Source: a virus. From it: a stretch of 32,443 bases of DNA. Under the pieces are notes generated by a model that was not told the origin of the DNA, did not search any database, and saw only the letters and a list, made by a program, of their open reading frames with translations. This document shows, piece by piece, positions 17,354 to 32,443 of the stretch; position 1 is the stretch's first letter, and each line of letters opens with the position of its first letter. The stretch is from positions 1 through 32,443 of the IMG/VR virus record IMGVR_UViG_3300008735_000056; one strand, 5' to 3'. Made by a program: the position numbers and the translations under genes.

Positions 17354-17657
17354 TGAAGAAAACCAAAAGATACAGTTTGATAGAAATAGTGTCATTTATA
17401 AACAGTATAAGGATACTGATATTACAATGGACGGATTAGCTGACGAGTATAACTTAACCAAGCAACGTGTTTGGCAGATTATTAGACGTTGCCAATTAGG
17501 AAACGGTGACTACTATCACGGTTATGTAAGGTATAAAGAAAAAGAGGATTCCCTCAAAGATCTTGGAGTAACAGGCAACCGCCTTCATGCACTTATGCGT
17601 AAGTGGATGACCGATCAAGGTGCAAAAATGATCAAGCTTCGAGATGAAAGAGAGTAA
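17340..17657 (+). CDS. Small helix-turn-helix protein
   Basis: 105 residues from the ATG at 17340, chosen because GAGGAGG stands 6 bp ahead; an upstream in-frame start at 17283 lies deep in the polymerase gene. Residues about 31-52 read MDGLADEYNLTKQRVWQIIRR, a clear helix-turn-helix of the sigma region 4 or resolvase kind (LA-x-x-Y-x-L-T-x-x-R-V-x-Q-I). The C-terminal part is basic and helical. It could be a transcription regulator of the phage's own promoters or a DNA-binding accessory of the polymerase. It overlaps the polymerase end by 14 bp and the next gene by 14 bp. Confidence 0.7.
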   Translation: MKGISEENQKIQFDRNSVIYKQYKDTDITMDGLADEYNLTKQRVWQIIRRCQLGNGDYYHGYVRYKEKEDSLKDLGVTGNRLHALMRKWMTDQGAKMIKLRDERE

Positions 17658-18024
17658 TCTCTGGAATAATTTACGCAAAAAGCTTTCTGAAGTTCTCTGG
17701 CAACGAATTGAAACAGGGGGAACTGGCAGAGGGATTGCGGATGTTTTTGGGGTTTACAGTTCCAACTGCTGCTGGGTAGAGCTTAAAGTCACGAACACTA
17801 ACGCAGTTAAACTACGACCTGAACAAATAGCTTGGCTTATTAAATTTGGTGAGGCAGGTGTGCCAACATACATTCTCGTGGGAACTGATAAAAGAAAATT
17901 ATATCTTTTTTCTGGGCTTGATGCACGCGAGGTAAGGGATCAAGGGTTAAAGCATCCTAGCCTATTAGAACTAAGTGCTCCTTACGACTGGAACGCTTTA
18001 AGAAACATTTTATTTAGTAAATAA
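17644..18024 (+). CDS. VRR-NUC-like / Holliday-junction-resolvase-type nuclease
   Basis: 126 residues, the usual length of stand-alone VRR-NUC domains. Visible PD-(D/E)XK pattern: an early Glu (LWNNLRKKLSEVLWQRIETG), the Asp of GIADVFGV, the E-x-K of CWVELKVTN, and the closing PEQIAWLIKFGEAGVPTYILV with its Gln. Such proteins cut branched or flap DNA; in phages they resolve recombination or replication junctions before packaging. It is the last gene of the long early operon and overlaps the HTH gene. A promoter for the next unit begins only 5 bp after its stop. Confidence 0.8.
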   Translation: MKESNLWNNLRKKLSEVLWQRIETGGTGRGIADVFGVYSSNCCWVELKVTNTNAVKLRPEQIAWLIKFGEAGVPTYILVGTDKRKLYLFSGLDAREVRDQGLKHPSLLELSAPYDWNALRNILFSK

Positions 18025-18029
18025 ATCCT

Positions 18030-18057
18030 TTTACATTCAAACTATCCTACTTAAAAT
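18030..18057 (+). promoter_or_regulatory. Promoter of the structured RNA, TTTACATTCAAA type
   Basis: TTTACA (18030-18035), 16-bp spacer, TAAAAT (18052-18057). The first twelve bases, TTTACATTCAAA, are identical in the promoters at 21858 and 23656. An inverted repeat TAGGT-N6-ACCTA (18075-18090) follows just after the expected start. Confidence 0.7.
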
Positions 18058-18063
18058 ATAGGT

Positions 18064-18423
18064 AAGTAAGTAAATAGGTTGATTGACCTAGTGGGCAACA
18101 TAATGGAGCCTTTTGTCCAGAGTTATGAATAAGGCATTAGATATTTCAAGTGTTTATTTACTAGGCTAGAGGACACCGTGCATACAGCTCGAGCAAATGT
18201 GATATACAACAAGCAATGCCGTCACCGTTGTCCTTTAGCTGACTGAGTTTTATGAATTGATACCCCAGCAGGCGGTGGGGAAATAATAACACCTGCAACG
18301 GAAGCTGTTCAATATCTCCCATGCGGGAAATAGCATTTTCCGACAGAGCTTTTTAATTATCGTTTGAGGCTCTGTTGAACGGTGATTTCGAGGGTGAACT
18401 GGAAACAGTTCACCCGATTTTTT
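18064..18423 (+). ncRNA. Putative structured noncoding RNA, about 360 nt
   Basis: The 545-bp gap between the nuclease and the DUF932 gene has no reading frame worth calling, but holds its own promoter, dense base pairing and an intrinsic terminator. Visible elements: TAGGT/ACCTA (18075-18090); a long hairpin 18170-18234 closed by AGGACA/TGTCCT with inner CG and GCAT/ATGC pairs; an H-type pseudoknot 18263-18296 in which CCCCA pairs with TGGGG and the loop GCAGG pairs with CCTGC; a stacked hairpin 18299-18342 with CGGAA/TTCCG, GCT/AGC and TCCC/GGGA; ACAGAGC/GCTCTGT (18343-18375); then the terminator. This is more structure than chance spacing should give. I do not recognise it as tmRNA, RNase P RNA, 6S RNA or a group I intron. 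Function is unknown. Confidence 0.65.
18392..18423 (+). terminator. Intrinsic terminator of the structured RNA
   Basis: A perfect 10-bp stem, GGGTGAACTG with CAGTTCACCC, capped by a GAAA tetraloop, then GA and six T residues. It ends the noncoding RNA before the next promoter. Confidence 0.9.
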
Positions 18424-18463: not shown

Positions 18464-18509
18464 TTTACAATGGGGTAGTCATAACTAAACTATCCTTACC
18501 TAATAGGTA
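18464..18509 (+). promoter_or_regulatory. Promoter and TACCTA palindrome before the DUF932 gene
   Basis: TTTACA (18464-18469), 16-bp spacer, TAAACT (18486-18491). A perfect palindrome, TACCTA-A-TAGGTA (18497-18509), covers the expected start of transcription and looks like an operator. A 60-bp leader then leads to a strong AAGGAG site before the ATG at 18570. Confidence 0.55.
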
Positions 18510-18569
18510 GTGCTTTATGTATTGTCTATATAGGTGGGTTATTTAACAATAATAATATAAGGAGACTAT

Positions 18570-19604
18570 ATGGCACATATGGTAGAAACCATGGCTTATG
18601 CTGGTGAAGTCCCTTGGCACGGATTAGGAGTCCAAGTTGATGACAACTTATCTCCTGAAGAAATGCTAAAGGTGGCTGGTTTGGATTGGACTGTTAGTAG
18701 ACGACACATGTTTACGCATACCACTCCAGAATTTAACGAAGCCGATCCCGAGTTCATGCCTGTTGATGGTTATCACGTACTCGTACGAGATAGTGATCAA
18801 AAGACACTTGGACCTTGTGGACCTGACTTCATTCCTACCCAAAACCGTGAAGCGTTTACCTTCTTTAAAAAGTTCACCGATGCAGGAGACATGAAAATGG
18901 AAACTGCTGGTTCTTTAAAAGACGGTAGACAAGTCTGGGGATTAGCGAAACTAAATGATAGCTTCGTTCTTCCAGGAGACGACAAGGTTGAAGGTTATTT
19001 GCTAGTGGCGGTGGCTCATCAATGGGGTAAAGCTAATGAAATTAGATTTACACCAATACGTGTAGTGTGTAATAACACGCTCAGTATGGCGATGAGCAAA
19101 GAGGGTAAAAGAGGTGTATTTAAAATGCCTCACCTTAGAGCATTTGATAATGAGATCATTATTGCTGCAGAGGAAGCCCTCGGAATTGCTTCTAATAAAA
19201 TGCAAAACTATAAAGAACAAGCAGAGTTTTTGACTACTAAAAAGTACAAAAAAGATTCTGTAGTTACTTTTATAGCTGATCTTTTACAACCTGACTTACT
19301 AATAGAGCAAAATGAGCTTGAAAAAGAGTCAGACGTTAGAAAGATTGCTGCACGTCAAACCATGCTAGATGAGTTTAAGAAAACTCCTAGCTTAGTGTAT
19401 GACGCTTTAGAACAACAGCCAGGAGCAAACCTAGTATCTTCTAAAGGTACATGGTGGGGAGCATACAACGCTGTAACTTTTATAGTAGACCACAAATGGG
19501 GATACGATAGAGATTCAGCAATTCACAACGCTTGGTTCGGAACTCGTAGTAAACTAAAGGAAAGAGCATTAGACAAGGCGATTGAGTATGCCAAAGCAGC
19601 ATGA
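18570..19604 (+). CDS. DUF932 / phage-plasmid-like protein
   Basis: 344 residues with the family hallmarks: a start HMVETMAYAGEVPWHGLG, the segment DWTVSRR, the long beta-rich middle ending in FTPIRVVCNNTLSMA, and a C-terminal helical part with WGAYNAVTFIVDH. Known members lie on phages and plasmids; their biochemical role is not settled. A strong ribosome site (TAAGGAGA) and an own promoter after the structured RNA point to high expression. It opens a new transcription unit with the small gene that overlaps its 3' end. Confidence 0.85.
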   Translation: MAHMVETMAYAGEVPWHGLGVQVDDNLSPEEMLKVAGLDWTVSRRHMFTHTTPEFNEADPEFMPVDGYHVLVRDSDQKTLGPCGPDFIPTQNREAFTFFKKFTDAGDMKMETAGSLKDGRQVWGLAKLNDSFVLPGDDKVEGYLLVAVAHQWGKANEIRFTPIRVVCNNTLSMAMSKEGKRGVFKMPHLRAFDNEIIIAAEEALGIASNKMQNYKEQAEFLTTKKYKKDSVVTFIADLLQPDLLIEQNELEKESDVRKIAARQTMLDEFKKTPSLVYDALEQQPGANLVSSKGTWWGAYNAVTFIVDHKWGYDRDSAIHNAWFGTRSKLKERALDKAIEYAKAA

Positions 19605-21198: not shown

Positions 21199-21853
21199 AT
21201 CAGAATGGATGATCGATGAGCAGGTAGCTGATCTAATTAAAACTGCTCTCCCCGAAATACTAAAGTTCGGTAAGTCATTAGGGAAAAATGACTTAAAAGA
21301 AACTGTTTTGCGTAGTCAAATTAAAGAACCTGTTAAAGAGGTCTACACAACACCTCTTTTTAAACCTGATTTTTGTGAAATGCTATTAGATGAAGTAGAG
21401 AATATGAAGCTCTATTTTAATTTTGAACCTAACCCTGAAGAAGATGAACTCAGGCAAATACCCGAAATTATATTAGAACAGTTTGCTCCTGATATATTTT
21501 TATCTATGATGAGTGTGGTTTATTCTGTTATGAACCCTATTTTTATGGTACTGTGGCAACGCTATATAGAAACAGCCTACAGTATTCAAATAGCTAATTA
21601 CAATTTAAAGAACAAACAACAAGGTGCATGGCACCATGATCAAACTGCCGATATCAGCGTAGTAGTTCCCTTAAATACTGGTGACTATAAGGGCGGAGGC
21701 ACAGAATTTCTTGGCAGAGGGGTAGTTGATCCCTTACCTAGTGGTCATGCGTTGATTTTTCCTAGCTTTACCCACATGCATCGTGGTTTAGCAGTAGACA
21801 AAGGAGACCGTTACCTTCTGGTCTTCTGGCTTAAAACCGCAATTCCCGTTTAA
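21158..21853 (+). CDS. 2-oxoglutarate/Fe(II)-dependent oxygenase, prolyl-hydroxylase type
   Basis: 231 residues. The C-terminal double-stranded beta-helix carries the metal triad H159-x-D161 (AWHHDQTADISVVVPLN) and H206 or H208 (FTHMHRG), with R218 (KGDRYLLVFW) for 2-oxoglutarate. GGGTEFLGRGVVDPLPSGHALIFPS is the expected middle strand. The N-terminal 110 residues are helical and phage-specific. Substrate unknown: protein side chains are usual for this branch, but a base or sugar is possible given the neighbouring modification genes. The start overlaps the nucleotidyltransferase; a later ATG at 21206 would cut the N-terminus. The promoter of the next unit follows the stop. Confidence 0.85.
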   Translation: MNNYLIKNFPLAVRSEWMIDEQVADLIKTALPEILKFGKSLGKNDLKETVLRSQIKEPVKEVYTTPLFKPDFCEMLLDEVENMKLYFNFEPNPEEDELRQIPEIILEQFAPDIFLSMMSVVYSVMNPIFMVLWQRYIETAYSIQIANYNLKNKQQGAWHHDQTADISVVVPLNTGDYKGGGTEFLGRGVVDPLPSGHALIFPSFTHMHRGLAVDKGDRYLLVFWLKTAIPV

Positions 21854-21857
21854 CCCC

Positions 21858-21907
21858 TTTACATTCAAAACGTCAGGGGTATAATGTCCTTATAGGTATA
21901 AACCTAT
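21858..21907 (+). promoter_or_regulatory. Promoter TTTACA-N16-TATAAT with TAGGT inverted repeat
   Basis: TTTACA (21858-21863), 16-bp spacer, consensus TATAAT (21880-21885). The run from CCTTTACATTCAAAACGTC is shared with the promoter at 23656. A perfect repeat ATAGGT-N4-ACCTAT (21892-21907) lies at the expected transcript start and would form a 5' hairpin or operator. The next gene has AAAGGAG. Confidence 0.85.
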
Positions 21908-23636: not shown

Positions 23637-23655
23637 ACAACTCGGGTACAACTCC

Positions 23656-23707
23656 TTTACATTCAAAACGTCGGGCGTATAATGTATATACTAGGTTAAA
23701 ACCCTAG
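23656..23707 (+). promoter_or_regulatory. Promoter TTTACA-N16-TATAAT with CTAGG inverted repeat
   Basis: TTTACA (23656-23661), 16-bp spacer, TATAAT (23678-23683), near identical to the promoter at 21858. CTAGG (23691-23695) pairs with CCTAG (23703-23707) just after the expected start. The first gene lies 42 bp on, with TAGGAGAAA. Confidence 0.85.
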
Positions 23708-28002: not shown

Positions 28003-28188
28003 TTACATTTTCCTTTTTAGTTGTTGATAAATAGCTCTGCCGCACTTAGGATCCAGGAATATGGTGGGGTGGCGTTTTTCCACCCCATCCTTATCCTTGA
28101 CCATCCTTTGTACATGCTTAGCTTCCGTACAGTCCACTCCCCCTTTACGCAGGGAGCGTCTGAGTTCTTTTGCTTTCTTAGCGTTCAT
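28003..28188 (-). CDS. Small basic protein
   Basis: 61 residues, ATG overlapping the upstream TGA. Very basic at both ends (MNAKKAKELRRSLRKGG; YQQLKRKM), with two Cys and a central DGVEKRHPTIFLDPKCGRAI. The basic start is typical of nucleic-acid-binding phage peptides, but no family is recognised. Confidence 0.55.
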   Translation of the reverse strand: MNAKKAKELRRSLRKGGVDCTEAKHVQRMVKDKDGVEKRHPTIFLDPKCGRAIYQQLKRKM

Positions 28189-28637
28189 GAGTCATCATTC
28201 CTTATACGCACATACTCGGTTAACGCACTTTGAAAGCTACAGCCACGAAGACTGATCGCATAGTAAGTGAACTCTTTTGAGCGGTGAACTGAGATATGAT
28301 GATACTCACCAGCTTGATAGTAATAAGACAAAGGAGTATCGTAGACCGTTGACCAGATCTTTTCTTCCTTCTTCTCATCATTCTCGTCCCACTGTGTGGG
28401 TAGGTCTGATGGCTCATCTGTTTCATGAGTTTCACTGAAGTAATAGCCATACACTGGAGCTTGAGTTCTTATAAACATCTCAAGTATTGAGTAGATGACT
28501 TTCATTTCTTGGTAAACTAAAGGAGACTCTTCTTTCATAGTCTCATAGTCCCACATCTCAGGCATAAACAGTCCATCGTCATCCGAGCTTTTATACACAT
28601 ACCAACCATCTGAGTTGGCAACCTTTGAATTTTCCAT
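28185..28637 (-). CDS. Hypothetical protein, first gene of the second leftward operon
   Basis: 150 residues from the ATG at 28637, which has GCGGAG seven bases upstream; the ATG two codons earlier is too close to that site. Acidic and aromatic: MWDYETMKEESPLVYQEMKV, YGYYFSETHETDEPSDLPTQ, YYYQAGEYHHISVHRS, YYAISLRGCSF. No family recognised. The promoter with a perfect inverted repeat lies just upstream. It may be a host-takeover type protein, but only position suggests so. Confidence 0.6.
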   Translation of the reverse strand: MENSKVANSDGWYVYKSSDDDGLFMPEMWDYETMKEESPLVYQEMKVIYSILEMFIRTQAPVYGYYFSETHETDEPSDLPTQWDENDEKKEEKIWSTVYDTPLSYYYQAGEYHHISVHRSKEFTYYAISLRGCSFQSALTEYVRIRNDDS

Positions 28638-28663
28638 AAGCATTCTCCGCTTAATTAAACAAT

Positions 28664-28718
28664 GTATAGGTTATTCAACCTATACTACCTATTATACTAA
28701 CGATTAAACGACTCTAAA
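28664..28718 (-). promoter_or_regulatory. Leftward promoter with perfect 9-bp inverted repeat
   Basis: On the reverse strand TTTAGA (28718-28713), 16 bp, TATAAT (28696-28691). GTATAGGTT and AACCTATAC (28664-28685) flank a 4-base loop just after the start. The run TTAATCGTTAG before the -10 is shared with the promoter at 29662. The -35 lies inside a hairpin (AACAACTC with GAGTCGTT) that may end the upstream operon. Confidence 0.8.
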
Positions 28719-28727
28719 GCGAGTTGT

Positions 28728-29060: not shown

Positions 29061-29581
29061 ACATCCTCCCAATCTATTAACATATATTCTGTACGACTAT
29101 ACGGAAAATCTATAGTAAGATAGTTAAGACCCAAACTCTTAGCCAGAAAGTCAATCGCATTATGCACCCCACCGTTAGTTGGATCAATCTGTTCAGTGAC
29201 CGTAAAACCACTACACGTTTGATAATACTCATGATCCATAAGTAAATAAACTACGCCATTTTCCCATAGTTTATAGTCTTCACCCAGTAGAATAGCAGCC
29301 ACTTCGGAACTTAATAGTTGACGCTGTTCAGCGGACAATTCTAGGACTATACTAGCCCCAGTCTCTTCTCCCCAGTTAGCAACAACTAACGGTATAGCAC
29401 CATTGAAGTGTTTGGGATCATACTTATCTTCTGTCATGAATTCTATTAAGAAGCCCTCTTCGACAAATAGATTTTCAGCATTGACGCTGAAGTATTCAAG
29501 ACGGTGAAATTCGTTATGATTTTCCCTTACCGCTTTGACGACTGGCTGAGCATAATTCACAAATCTTTGAAGATTGTTCAT
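29057..29581 (-). CDS. Hypothetical acidic protein, first of the leftward operon
   Basis: 174 residues, with GGAGGAATATA before the ATG and a consensus promoter. The product has NNLQRFVNYAQPVVKAVREN, EYFSVNAENLFVEEGFLIEF, SIVLELSAEQRQLLSSEVAA and a Tyr-rich end. Likely one compact domain; no family recognised. Being the first leftward gene, next to a palindrome-rich control region and beside the packaging genes, it is a candidate for an early host-directed function, but no motif supports one. Confidence 0.6.
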   Translation of the reverse strand: MNNLQRFVNYAQPVVKAVRENHNEFHRLEYFSVNAENLFVEEGFLIEFMTEDKYDPKHFNGAIPLVVANWGEETGASIVLELSAEQRQLLSSEVAAILLGEDYKLWENGVVYLLMDHEYYQTCSGFTVTEQIDPTNGGVHNAIDFLAKSLGLNYLTIDFPYSRTEYMLIDWEDV

Positions 29582-29607
29582 TATATTCCTCCGATTAATT
29601 AAACAAT

Positions 29608-29662
29608 GTTAATAAACTATTTATTAACCATACTATTATACTAACGATTAAGTGAGTGTAAA
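29608..29662 (-). promoter_or_regulatory. Leftward consensus promoter with perfect inverted repeat
   Basis: On the reverse strand TTTACA (29662-29657), 16 bp, TATAAT (29640-29635). GTTAATAAA and TTTATTAAC (29608-29628) form a perfect 9-bp repeat around 3 bases, just after the start. Same build as the promoter at 28718. Confidence 0.85.
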
Positions 29663-30011
29663 GGAGTTGTAACTACTTTACAAAGTTAGTAAGTACTTAC
29701 TTACTTGACTGTTTTAGTGGGCACTCAATATTTAGTTAGTGATCACTTACTTGCTAGATCGACTAAACTCGTTCATAAGTAAAGAGGAATGGGCTATTGG
29801 TATATAGGGTTGCATAAAAGAAAAAATAAAAATGTAAAAAAGGGACAGTTTAGCCAATAGCCCAATAGCTTTTGATTAGAAATGTAGTAAACAAAAGGAG
29901 TAGGGATATATTGAGCTGGGTTATTAGCCGAGTATTGGTGGAATTGGGGTAATAAGTGAGTAATGCATTGGTAATAATGCATGATGATGACGTGTGTTGT
30001 AAAATAGAGTG
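29663..30011. other. Noncoding control region with palindromes and GCTATTGG repeats
   Basis: No gene seen. It holds a perfect 14-bp palindrome AGTAAGTACTTACT (29688-29701) and a perfect 10-bp one, AGTGATCACT (29738-29747), each preceded by TT and followed by TACTTG; an inverted repeat TGGGCTATTGG (29790-29800) with CCAATAGCCCA (29854-29864); and a tandem CCAATAGC pair (29854-29869). The last is the reverse complement of the GCTATTGA pair of the 6030 region apart from one base per unit. This could be an origin, a switch between leftward and rightward transcription, or both. Confidence 0.55.
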
Positions 30012-30085
30012 TTTACTTTTAAACAGTGGTCCATATATAATAGAACTCTGGTATTCAACTAGGTTTTCCTTGTTTCGGAGGAAAA
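30012..30085 (+). promoter_or_regulatory. TerS promoter and leader hairpin
   Basis: TTTACT (30012-30017), about 18 bp, TATAAT (30036-30041). In the leader GTTTTCC pairs with GGAAAAC around a ten-base loop (about 30063-30086). The ribosome site for TerS is AAAAGG just before the ATG at 30102. Confidence 0.6.
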
Positions 30086-30101
30086 CAGGGAAAAGGTACA
30101 G

Positions 30102-30587
30102 ATGTCGAGAACAAAAGGATCAGGAACTCTCACCCCTCAACAAGAGAAATTTGCACAGAACGTTGCCAAAGGCATGAATAAAACACAGGCTGCCATTGCA
30201 GCTGGGTACTCGGAGAAGAATGCTCAACGTGCTGGTACTATGCTTGCCAGTAAGAACAATCCTAAGGTCTTGGACCGTATCACTGTTCTTCAAGAGCGTG
30301 GGGCTTACCGAGCAGGACTGGAGCTCGGAACTCATTTAACAGATTTGAAGGACATTCGTGATGGGGCAGTGCGCAATGGGGCTTGGTCTGCTGCGGTAAC
30401 GGCAGAGGTCAGTCGTGGAAAGGCAGCAGGTCTGTATGTGAACAGGTCGGAGCTCACAGTTAACAAGGTAGAGACCATGAATAAGGAAGACATTCTTGCC
30501 AGAATGCAACAACTATATCATGAGACAGGAGGAATATTGCCTCCTGGAACTGTAATAGAGGGAGAGAGCAAGACGCTCGACGAATAG
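30102..30587 (+). CDS. terS: Terminase small subunit
   Basis: 161 residues. It recognises the packaging site in phage DNA and guides the large subunit. The N-terminal DNA-binding part carries LTPQQEKFAQNVAKG (10-24), NKTQAAIAAGYS (26-37) and AGTMLASKNNPKVLDRI, the standard pattern of the terminase small-subunit family with its helix-turn-helix. A central helical oligomerisation part and a short C-terminal tail (ILPPGTVIEGESKTLDE) follow. Base composition is somewhat more GC-rich than neighbours. The large subunit is not adjacent but 1.5 kb on, beyond two reverse-strand genes. Confidence 0.9.
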   Translation: MSRTKGSGTLTPQQEKFAQNVAKGMNKTQAAIAAGYSEKNAQRAGTMLASKNNPKVLDRITVLQERGAYRAGLELGTHLTDLKDIRDGAVRNGAWSAAVTAEVSRGKAAGLYVNRSELTVNKVETMNKEDILARMQQLYHETGGILPPGTVIEGESKTLDE

Positions 30588-30671: not shown

Positions 30672-31049
30672 CTAGCCCTCAGGATCGAAGTTAGGACCAT
30701 CAACAATCACTAGGTAGCGACAGGTGACGATGTCATACTTCAGATCCGCCCAGTCAAAGTATTGAGACTCAACACATTCGCGTAGAGTTTTGCCGTCGGC
30801 AAACTCCGCACGCTCGTGGTGTTTTCTCGCTTGAGCTTTGACAAGACGCGACTCGTTTATCGCAAGGATTGAGTCCATATATTCAGACATTTGAGTCTGA
30901 AATTGAGACCCACGACCTTGAGATTTGCGAGTAGCTTGAGCGACTAGAACTTCAAGAGCAGACTCTAGATCAGGGTCACCAGCGATGGCAACTCCGACCA
31001 GTTCTTGAGCATCTTGAAGACTTGGCGTTTTAGCTTGATCTTCTTTCAT
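30672..31049 (-). CDS. Hypothetical protein, paralogue of the gene at 31398
   Basis: 125 residues from the ATG at 31049 with AAGGAAAATGT ahead. The product begins MKEDQAKTPSLQDAQELVGV and has DLESALEVLVAQATRKSQGR and ADGKTLRECVESQYFDWADL, then KYDIVTCRYLVI. The reverse-strand gene at 31398 has ADGKTVAEAM and a similar D-x-x-YDI-x-x-YLL ending, so they are related. It is soluble and helical; no known family. Its opposite direction to both terminase genes suggests a later insertion or a separately timed control gene. Confidence 0.6.
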   Translation of the reverse strand: MKEDQAKTPSLQDAQELVGVAIAGDPDLESALEVLVAQATRKSQGRGSQFQTQMSEYMDSILAINESRLVKAQARKHHERAEFADGKTLRECVESQYFDWADLKYDIVTCRYLVIVDGPNFDPEG

Positions 31050-31127
31050 TACATTTTCCTTATAATGAATTAAACACACCCCAGCAGCCAGGACTGGGAA
31101 TTAAGAAACTCATTTACTTAACCTAAT

Positions 31128-31397: not shown

Positions 31398-31751
31398 TTA
31401 GCTTCTAGGATCTAGTAGGTAGCCTCTAGCTATATCATAGAGAATGTCAGCAATACGGTAACTACCGTGTACTTGATTCACTACTTTAGCCATGGCTTCT
31501 GCTACTGTTTTCCCATCAGCTTGATCAACTCTTTCCGCAATATAAACAGATTGAGGATCTTTAGAACCACGCATGAGTACCATGCTGTCTTCAAGACCTT
31601 TTCTGTTTACGGCTTTGGTGTTGACTTTAGTGAATACATTTAAGCATTCACCTAGTTCAGCATCGTCGCCTATTGCTTTTAAGAGTCTAGCCTTGGCTTC
31701 ATCTCTGGTAAGAGATTGGGCTTTGGCGTTAGCTTTTTGAGTCTTACTCAT
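31398..31751 (-). CDS. Hypothetical protein, paralogue of the gene at 30672
   Basis: 117 residues from the ATG at 31751, seven bases after GAGGAA; an ATG two codons earlier is too close. It starts MSKTQKANAKAQSLTRDEAK, then ARLLKAIGDDAELGECLNVF, and ends HGSYRIADILYDIARGYLL. The ADGKT motif and the ending match the gene at 30672. Lys/Ala-rich start suggests nucleic-acid binding. It reads away from TerL with its own leader of perfect repeats. Function unknown. Confidence 0.6.
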   Translation of the reverse strand: MSKTQKANAKAQSLTRDEAKARLLKAIGDDAELGECLNVFTKVNTKAVNRKGLEDSMVLMRGSKDPQSVYIAERVDQADGKTVAEAMAKVVNQVHGSYRIADILYDIARGYLLDPRS

Positions 31752-32090
31752 TAGCATTTTCCTCGCTTAAAGCGTTAAACACACACGCCTAAAAAGGCGT
31801 AACCTAATACTTTTAAAAAACCCACCTTTTAAAAAGGTATATATAGGTTACTACTTTACTTTATTAAAGTAAAGGGGTTTTATTAACTTATTTAATATAA
31901 GGGTTAATTAAGGGTTAATTTAGGGTATATAAAGGTTAAAAAGGTAGTAGCGGTTTACTACGCTTAGTTATTAACCCCCCTACCCCCCCTATATATAGGT
32001 AGCTTTTAGGCACGTATCCGCCTGAGTTTTTCAGACTAATATTCCATGGAATTTTTATACAGCTTTACAGTTCCTTTATTCAAGGTTATC
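31752..32090. other. Repeat-rich noncoding spacer upstream of TerL
   Basis: No gene seen. From left: ACCTTTT-A-AAAAGGT (31824-31838), a perfect repeat; CTTTACTTT with its complement around ATT (31854-31874); tandem AAGGGTTAATT (31899-31909, 31910-31920); GTAGTA/TACTAC (31944-31961); two C-runs of six and seven split by TA (31975-31989). On the reverse strand TTTAAT-N17-TATATA (31868-31840) may be the promoter of the gene at 31398. On the forward strand TTTACA at 32063 with TATCAT near 32086 may serve TerL. A packaging or end site here is possible. Confidence 0.5.
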
Positions 32091-32443
32091 ATGTTAAAAA
32101 ATTGCTGCAAAATTTTTATGGAAATTGACAAAGAGCTTTGGGAACAGCTACCAAAAGACGTACTTAAAGAGTACCTCGAACTCACGGAAAGACTTAAAGA
32201 ACTCAATGAGGTTGAGCAATGTGAACAGAGCTTTTTAGCTTTCGTCAAATCTCAATGGCCACAGTTTATTGAGGGCAGTCATCACAGGATTATGGCTAAT
32301 GCCTTTGAACGGATCGCGAACGGTAAATTAAAACGTCTCATTATCAACATGCCTCCTAGACACACCAAGTCGGAGTTTGCTAGTCATATGTTGCCTGCGT
32401 GGTTAGTCGGGAAACGACCTGGACTCAAAATCATTCAAGCCAC
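32091..32443 (+). CDS. terL: Terminase large subunit, 3' end cut off
   Basis: ATP-driven packaging motor and nuclease; only the first 117 codons are in the window. The segment ERIANGKLKRLIINMPPRHTKSE holds the Walker A variant PPRHTKS that is typical of phage large terminases, followed by LPAWLVGKRPGLKIIQA as the next strand. Upstream part helical with EQSFLAFVKSQWPQFIEGSHH, also standard. I start at the ATG at 32091, which has AAGG six bases ahead; an ATG at 32118 starts MEIDKELW and is equally protein-like, and would be required if the promoter candidate at 32063 is used. Confidence 0.9.
   Translation, partial: MLKNCCKIFMEIDKELWEQLPKDVLKEYLELTERLKELNEVEQCEQSFLAFVKSQWPQFIEGSHHRIMANAFERIANGKLKRLIINMPPRHTKSEFASHMLPAWLVGKRPGLKIIQA

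Follow-up and report, generated by a model that had tools for sequence, protein, structure and literature searches.

The antisense RNAs OOP of phage lambda and sar of phage P22 are encoded in cis and have long matches to the gene that they overlap. Both lower the expression of a phage gene, and sar hinders translation initiation (PMC12197685). The same article describes VpdS of phage VP882 and PreS of lambda, which are Hfq-dependent phage sRNAs of approximately 50 and 88 nt, respectively, that base-pair with mRNAs. GOLLD and ROOL are structured noncoding phage RNAs of unknown function that range from approximately 660 to more than 800 nt and often lie near tRNA islands (PMC12286853), and the manA and wcaG motifs are structured RNAs of marine phages (cyanophages), presumed to be regulators and located with metabolic genes (PMC2864571). 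Large structured phage RNAs are known, and those in the literature consulted have no established target. No description of the RNA reported here was found in the consulted sections of the literature searched, which included PMC12286853, PMC2864571, PMC12197685, and PMC2704228.

The sequence analyzed was that of IMG/VR virus record IMGVR_UViG_3300008735_000056, positions 1-32,443, and this whole stretch of 32,443 nucleotides is called the window. It represents a tailed phage carrying a terminase gene, and the nearest DNA polymerase A sequences in GenBank (51-55% identity) were those of phage 023Pt_psg01 (sea water), phage DSL-LC04, and Pelagibacter phages. The locus follows genes for DNA polymerase A and a resolvase-like protein and lies in a gap of 545 bases between the gene at 17644-18024, the product of which is a Hjc/VRR-NUC-like resolvase, and a DUF932 gene at 18570-19604. 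What is new here is a previously unnamed RNA gene of marine phages, together with a conserved and easily opened segment (18329-18341) that is predicted to complement three genes of the minus strand in their ribosome-binding regions. Like GOLLD and ROOL it is a structured noncoding phage RNA, but it measures approximately 360 nt from promoter to terminator, outside the length range of those RNAs, and it has neither a tRNA in the window nor a match in Rfam. It resembles VpdS and PreS in being encoded by a phage and in the base pairing with mRNAs that is proposed below, but differs from them in its length, its pseudoknot, its several domains, and its proposed targets, which are phage genes. An antisense action that lowers phage gene expression, as in OOP and sar, is likewise proposed, but the match is only 8-11 nt long and involves genes 10-13 kb away. 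With manA and wcaG it has in common that it is a structured RNA from marine phages, whereas those motifs adjoin metabolic genes in cyanophages and the present RNA matches no Rfam model.

An earlier note on this DNA had been unable to match the RNA to any class, and this was borne out by a search of the window against Rfam 15 (including GOLLD, ROOL, riboswitches, and tmRNA), in which no family reached its gathering cut-off. At E-values up to 5, the only match was to the snoRNA snoR121 (18.6 bits versus a cut-off of 50, E = 0.89), which is at the level of chance. ARAGORN found no tRNA or tmRNA genes in the window, and thereby no tRNA domain that would mark the RNA as tmRNA-like or tRNA-like.

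Relatives of the DUF932 gene were collected from IMG/VR, where 80 were kept from the 314 found. Within these 80, BLASTN of the region gave matches only to L002, L003, L005, and L004, which are the nearest kin of the window, and the match in L004 comprised only the 3' end of the RNA, where the contig starts. L002 and L003 are identical over the region, so that three alleles were available counting that of the window (window, L002/L003, and L005). In every carrier, the RNA shares its strand with DUF932 and lies directly upstream of it. The features of the locus are as follows:

18030-18057, plus strand: RNA promoter TTTACA-16-TAAAAT, from the sequence; spacing kept in L002 and L005, with hexamers TTTACA/TAAACT
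18064-18423, plus strand: predicted transcript of approximately 360 nt, its start placed 7 nt past the -10 box; from the fold, alignment A3, and lack of a conserved frame
18065-18162, plus strand: P1 arm, closed at its base by a helix of 18065-18076 and 18151-18162; interior the same as in L002, cassette of L005 different and shorter
18164-18240, plus strand: P2 hairpin, 18164-18175 with 18229-18240; L002/L005 have a rewritten stem that still pairs
18241-18262, plus strand: unpaired, near-invariant linker GACTGAGTTTTATGAATTGATA
18263-18296, plus strand: H-type pseudoknot, 5 bp + 5 bp, loops of 0, 3, and 11; invariant pairs
18299-18390, plus strand: P4 three-way-junction domain with a bulge of 2 nt at 18384-18385 and a hairpin, P4d, that pairs 18343-18349 with 18369-18375; compensated pairs
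18329-18341, plus strand: candidate antisense seed AATAGCATTTTCC, a conserved part of the P4 junction, from its complementarity to gene starts
18392-18415, T-rich through 18423, plus strand: intrinsic terminator, 10-bp stem with GAAA loop, from the sequence
18464-18491, plus strand: separate DUF932 promoter TTTACA-16-TAAACT, approximately 40 bases 3' of the RNA terminator
18570-19604, plus strand: DUF932 gene, downstream neighbor of the RNA (PF06067, E = 3e-42)

A 16-bp-spaced promoter, several hairpins, an H-type pseudoknot, and a GAAA-capped terminator in a stretch with no usable frame had all been claimed in the earlier note, and each was located at the positions given above. No ORF of at least 60 codons lies inside 18030-18423, where the longest plus-strand frame has 22 codons, and no frame is conserved across all three alleles. 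The RNA promoter, a copy of which is retained in L002, L003, and L005, is one of five copies of TTTACA-N16-TANANT in the window, versus 0.31 expected (at least five copies in 0 of 100 shuffles). The promoter family described in the earlier note therefore stands, but the phage control of the RNA that had been derived from it does not follow: the pattern is near the sigma-70 consensus, and host RNA polymerase is for that reason the likelier reader. In L002 and L005 the terminator is a different hairpin from that of the window, and the DUF932 promoter reads TTTACA-16-TATGCT, with its spacing unchanged, in L002, L004, and L005. Positions 18064-18423 very probably constitute a stand-alone gene for a noncoding RNA, which has a sigma-70-like promoter and a terminator of its own.

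The predicted fold of the RNA was more stable than expected (z = -3.96, with 0 of 100 shuffles equally stable), and the corresponding z values were -5.03 in L002 and -5.47 in L005. Alignment A3 was built from sequence alone, and the structure tested on it consisted of six helices. Of its 140 cells, a single one was unpaired (99.3% paired), and seven pairs were double-compensated, whereas slid controls paired 31-49% and had no more than two such pairs. When P2 stems of equal length were paired from the base, 12 of 12 pairs were kept, six of the 12 had changed on both sides, and none was broken; four further double changes in the inner part of P2 were paired by hand, and P4 contained five double-compensated pairs. 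Covariation among homologues, which the earlier note had proposed as a check, was in this way found, and it amounts in essence to a single contrast, that of the window with L002/L005, as L002 and L005 hardly differ between P2 and the terminator. Each allele has five to seven G-U pairs versus zero or one C-A pair, an excess which indicates that the plus strand is the RNA.

Conservation is unevenly distributed along the RNA. Between the window and L002, the flanking genes show 60-63% identity at fourfold sites, and identity amounts to 56 of 58 positions in the linker and pseudoknot, 105 of 106 in the P1 arm, 32 of 74 in P2, and 43 of 109 in P4. L002 and L005 agree at only 46 of 106 positions of the P1 arm, and L005 combines another P1-arm cassette with an RNA that otherwise resembles that of L002; the arms therefore behave as exchangeable modules around a constant linker-pseudoknot core. 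The comparison shows selection to keep the predicted fold of the P1 arm, P2, the linker and pseudoknot, and P4. A direct repeat of P4d at 32225 lies inside the terminase reading frame and was taken as chance. The motif GAGTT(TT)ATGAAT occurs both in the P1 arm (18120-18130) and in the linker (18245-18257), and the P1 copy is missing from L005.

One helix of the pseudoknot joins CCCCA (18263-18267) to TGGGG (18276-18280), and the second, interlocking helix joins GCAGG (18268-18272) to CCTGC (18292-18296). When the RNA was shuffled 500 times, no shuffle contained a pseudoknot as strong. A count over the entire window and both of its strands, however, gives three stronger pseudoknot-like patterns, all on the minus strand, so that by sequence alone the putative pseudoknot is only moderately unusual, and its near-invariance is the better evidence. 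Because its helices do not vary, covariation is silent on them, and their pairing rests on conservation and on the shuffles.

The RNA has a narrow distribution. In the next seven relatives (L006-L012, 66-69% protein identity), the two flanking genes are 72-87 bases apart, and the RNA is absent from the corresponding place in relatives with the same replication genes. Scans of IMG/VR with patterns for the pseudoknot, the linker, the loop-3/stem, and P4 returned the same three contigs and unrelated matches. The latter included pseudoknot-pattern matches in L086, L088, and L089, which were taken as chance, a linker 16-mer in 23 other contigs, where the matches look like coding coincidences, and three contigs with the loop motif (L114-L116). 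Both P1-arm cassettes were confined to their own carriers in these scans, and pattern scans of prokaryote genomes gave no match. A search of 45 other sources with covariance model R1 gave no convincing match; among 26 whole records, the model picked out the three carriers and, weakly, G026 (E = 0.09), and the 22 records without a match include L004, the carrier that is cut at the contig end. GenBank phages yielded a single weak match (E = 0.6). As far as the collections searched show, this is a narrow, genus-level accessory RNA.

Complementarity between the RNA and the phage's gene starts was screened using 13-base windows at every second position of the RNA. The windows starting at 18332 and 18330 were the two best of 174 when compared with 49 gene starts of the window phage, and they fall in segment AATAGCATTTTCC, one of four conserved segments tested against gene starts of the window, for which 0 of 100 permutations were as good. 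Shuffled sequences were as complementary to the phage gene starts as the linker in 28 of 100 cases and as loop 3 of the pseudoknot in 34 of 100. A P1-arm segment that seemed to match the polymerase gene start (3 of 100) was rejected, the best matches in L002 not being at the homologous start, and complementarity to E. coli rRNA was not notable. The three starts of the 49 that paired best with the seed are all on the minus strand:

31752-31762, minus strand: candidate target, ribosome-binding region of gene 31398-31757, a perfect 11-nt complement of 18331-18341
28639-28649, minus strand: candidate target, ribosome-binding region of gene 28185-28643, complementary with one G-U
31052-31059, minus strand: candidate target, ribosome-binding region of the gene starting at 31049, eight Watson-Crick pairs and then a G-U

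The Shine-Dalgarno/start region of gene 31398-31757 reads AGGAAAATGCTAATG. An 11-nt match to some gene start was reached by 17 of 200 shuffled RNAs, and the match in the window phage is weak evidence when taken alone. The leaders are not independent of one another, because they are Shine-Dalgarno-like and two of the genes are weak paralogues, 31757 and 31049 being weakly similar to each other. Opening the seed, some of which is base-paired in the P4 fold predicted for the window allele, would cost approximately 2 kcal/mol in both full RNAs (window and L005). A weak chimallin-family match of the 31757 protein was below the Pfam cut-off and was discarded, and the shared sequence GTAAGTAAGTAA at 29693 (two matches) was dropped since two were reached by 11 of 100 shuffles.

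A second lineage for the seed was available in L005 alone. Its segment has one U fewer than that of the window, and the orthologous leaders AGGAAATGCTTATG and AAGGAAATGCTATG have one A fewer, so that UUUU faces four purines in the targets of the window RNA and UUU faces AAA in the two leaders of L005. The first of these orthologous genes shares 58% protein identity with its counterpart, and the second ORF is truncated where the contig ends. The segment ranked second of 318 RNA windows against 40 starts in L005, having ranked 21st before one open-ended start was knowingly added and an ORF antisense to the RNA was masked, changes that favor the antisense reading. The first-ranked L005 window lay elsewhere, in an anti-Shine-Dalgarno-like segment of the P1 arm, and the seed segment also showed good pairing with a further gene start of L005. 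All five leaders paired better with the RNA of their own phage, and summed energies over the four orthologous leaders were -53.1 kcal/mol for cognate versus -39.5 kcal/mol for swapped combinations. The leaders of distant homologues (n = 4) in relatives that lack the RNA gave pairing of only -3.9 to -7.0. An antisense mechanism is the best-supported function suggested by these two lineages and computed energies.

It is quite possible, if short of probable, that the RNA is a trans-acting antisense regulator carried on a structured scaffold, and this reading can be tested. The RNA would act in trans on the phage's own genes, and the P4-junction segment AAUAGCAUUUUCC would pair with the Shine-Dalgarno/start regions of minus-strand genes 31757, 28643, and 31049, block ribosome binding, and so switch these genes down, while the pseudoknot and linker would provide a scaffold, a stabilizer, or a protein-binding core. 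Its own promoter and Rho-independent terminator, both predicted from sequence and conserved in other alleles, are as expected of a trans-acting antisense sRNA. A different account, which deserves serious weight although we doubt it, is that of a stand-alone structured RNA that binds a protein or forms a particle (a decoy, an anti-defense RNA, or an ornate-RNA-like assembly) through the linker and pseudoknot, in which case the match to the leaders would be due to chance. The most conserved part common to all alleles is indeed the linker and pseudoknot rather than the seed alone, the P1 arm is swapped as a cassette, and an 11-nt match is not rare among shuffled RNAs; against this, the seed is the best start-pairing window in one phage and the second best in the other, with matched run lengths.

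Riboswitches commonly contain pseudoknots, and the constant position of the RNA directly before DUF932 would also suit a long 5' leader that controls this gene by attenuation at the terminator in a riboswitch-like manner. This is unlikely, since the separate promoter between the terminator and DUF932 is conserved with the same spacing, the terminator hairpin differs between the window and L002, and no Rfam riboswitch was matched. A competing antiterminator, as an attenuator would have, was not apparent either, the 5' arm of the terminator pairing more weakly with upstream RNA than within its hairpin (-8.4 versus -19.2; -17.9 versus -25.7). A role as a replication primer or DNA-packaging RNA would fit a locus behind DNA polymerase A and resolvase-like genes in a terminase-encoding phage, and is nevertheless very improbable given the relatives that have the same replication genes and lack the RNA at this place, the 22 of 26 whole records without a match to R1 (the truncated carrier L004 included), and the GC skew of the window, which has no turn near 18 kb. 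That there is no functional RNA, and only inverted repeats and chance, is hardly credible: the pseudoknot by itself is not extreme at the scale of the window, but the double-compensated helices exceed the slid controls, the fold reaches z values of -4 to -5.5 in three alleles, and the covariation already contradicts this explanation.

On the antisense reading, the allele comparison behind the fold also points to three target leaders, with pairing predicted to be specific to each allele. This opens a large phage RNA to a direct test of its function. The arms, in addition, show an RNA gene evolving by the exchange of whole structural domains. A broader proposal, which we consider rather unlikely, is that the RNA represents a new kind of modular phage riboregulator, in which the linker-pseudoknot core would be constant, the arms would be swapped like cassettes, and the junction seed would coevolve with the ribosome-binding sites of a few of the phage's own genes.

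Several repeats and hairpins were observed elsewhere in the window. The promoter and leader of minus-strand genes 28643 and 29581 are duplicated (28629-28719 and 29573-29663, 78-87% identity), and the long intergenic stretch at 29581-30102, which precedes the terminase small-subunit gene, contains several near-repeats of TTACTTAC. A promoter block of 48 bases with TTTACATTCAAA at 21840-21887 is repeated at 23638-23685 (83% identity) and has its -35 region in common with the RNA promoter. The DUF932 leader (18480-18569) has a hairpin of its own, formed by CTTACCTA with TAGGTGGG in the window and by CTCACCTA with TAGGTGAG in L002 and L005, where it is kept with one-sided wobble changes.
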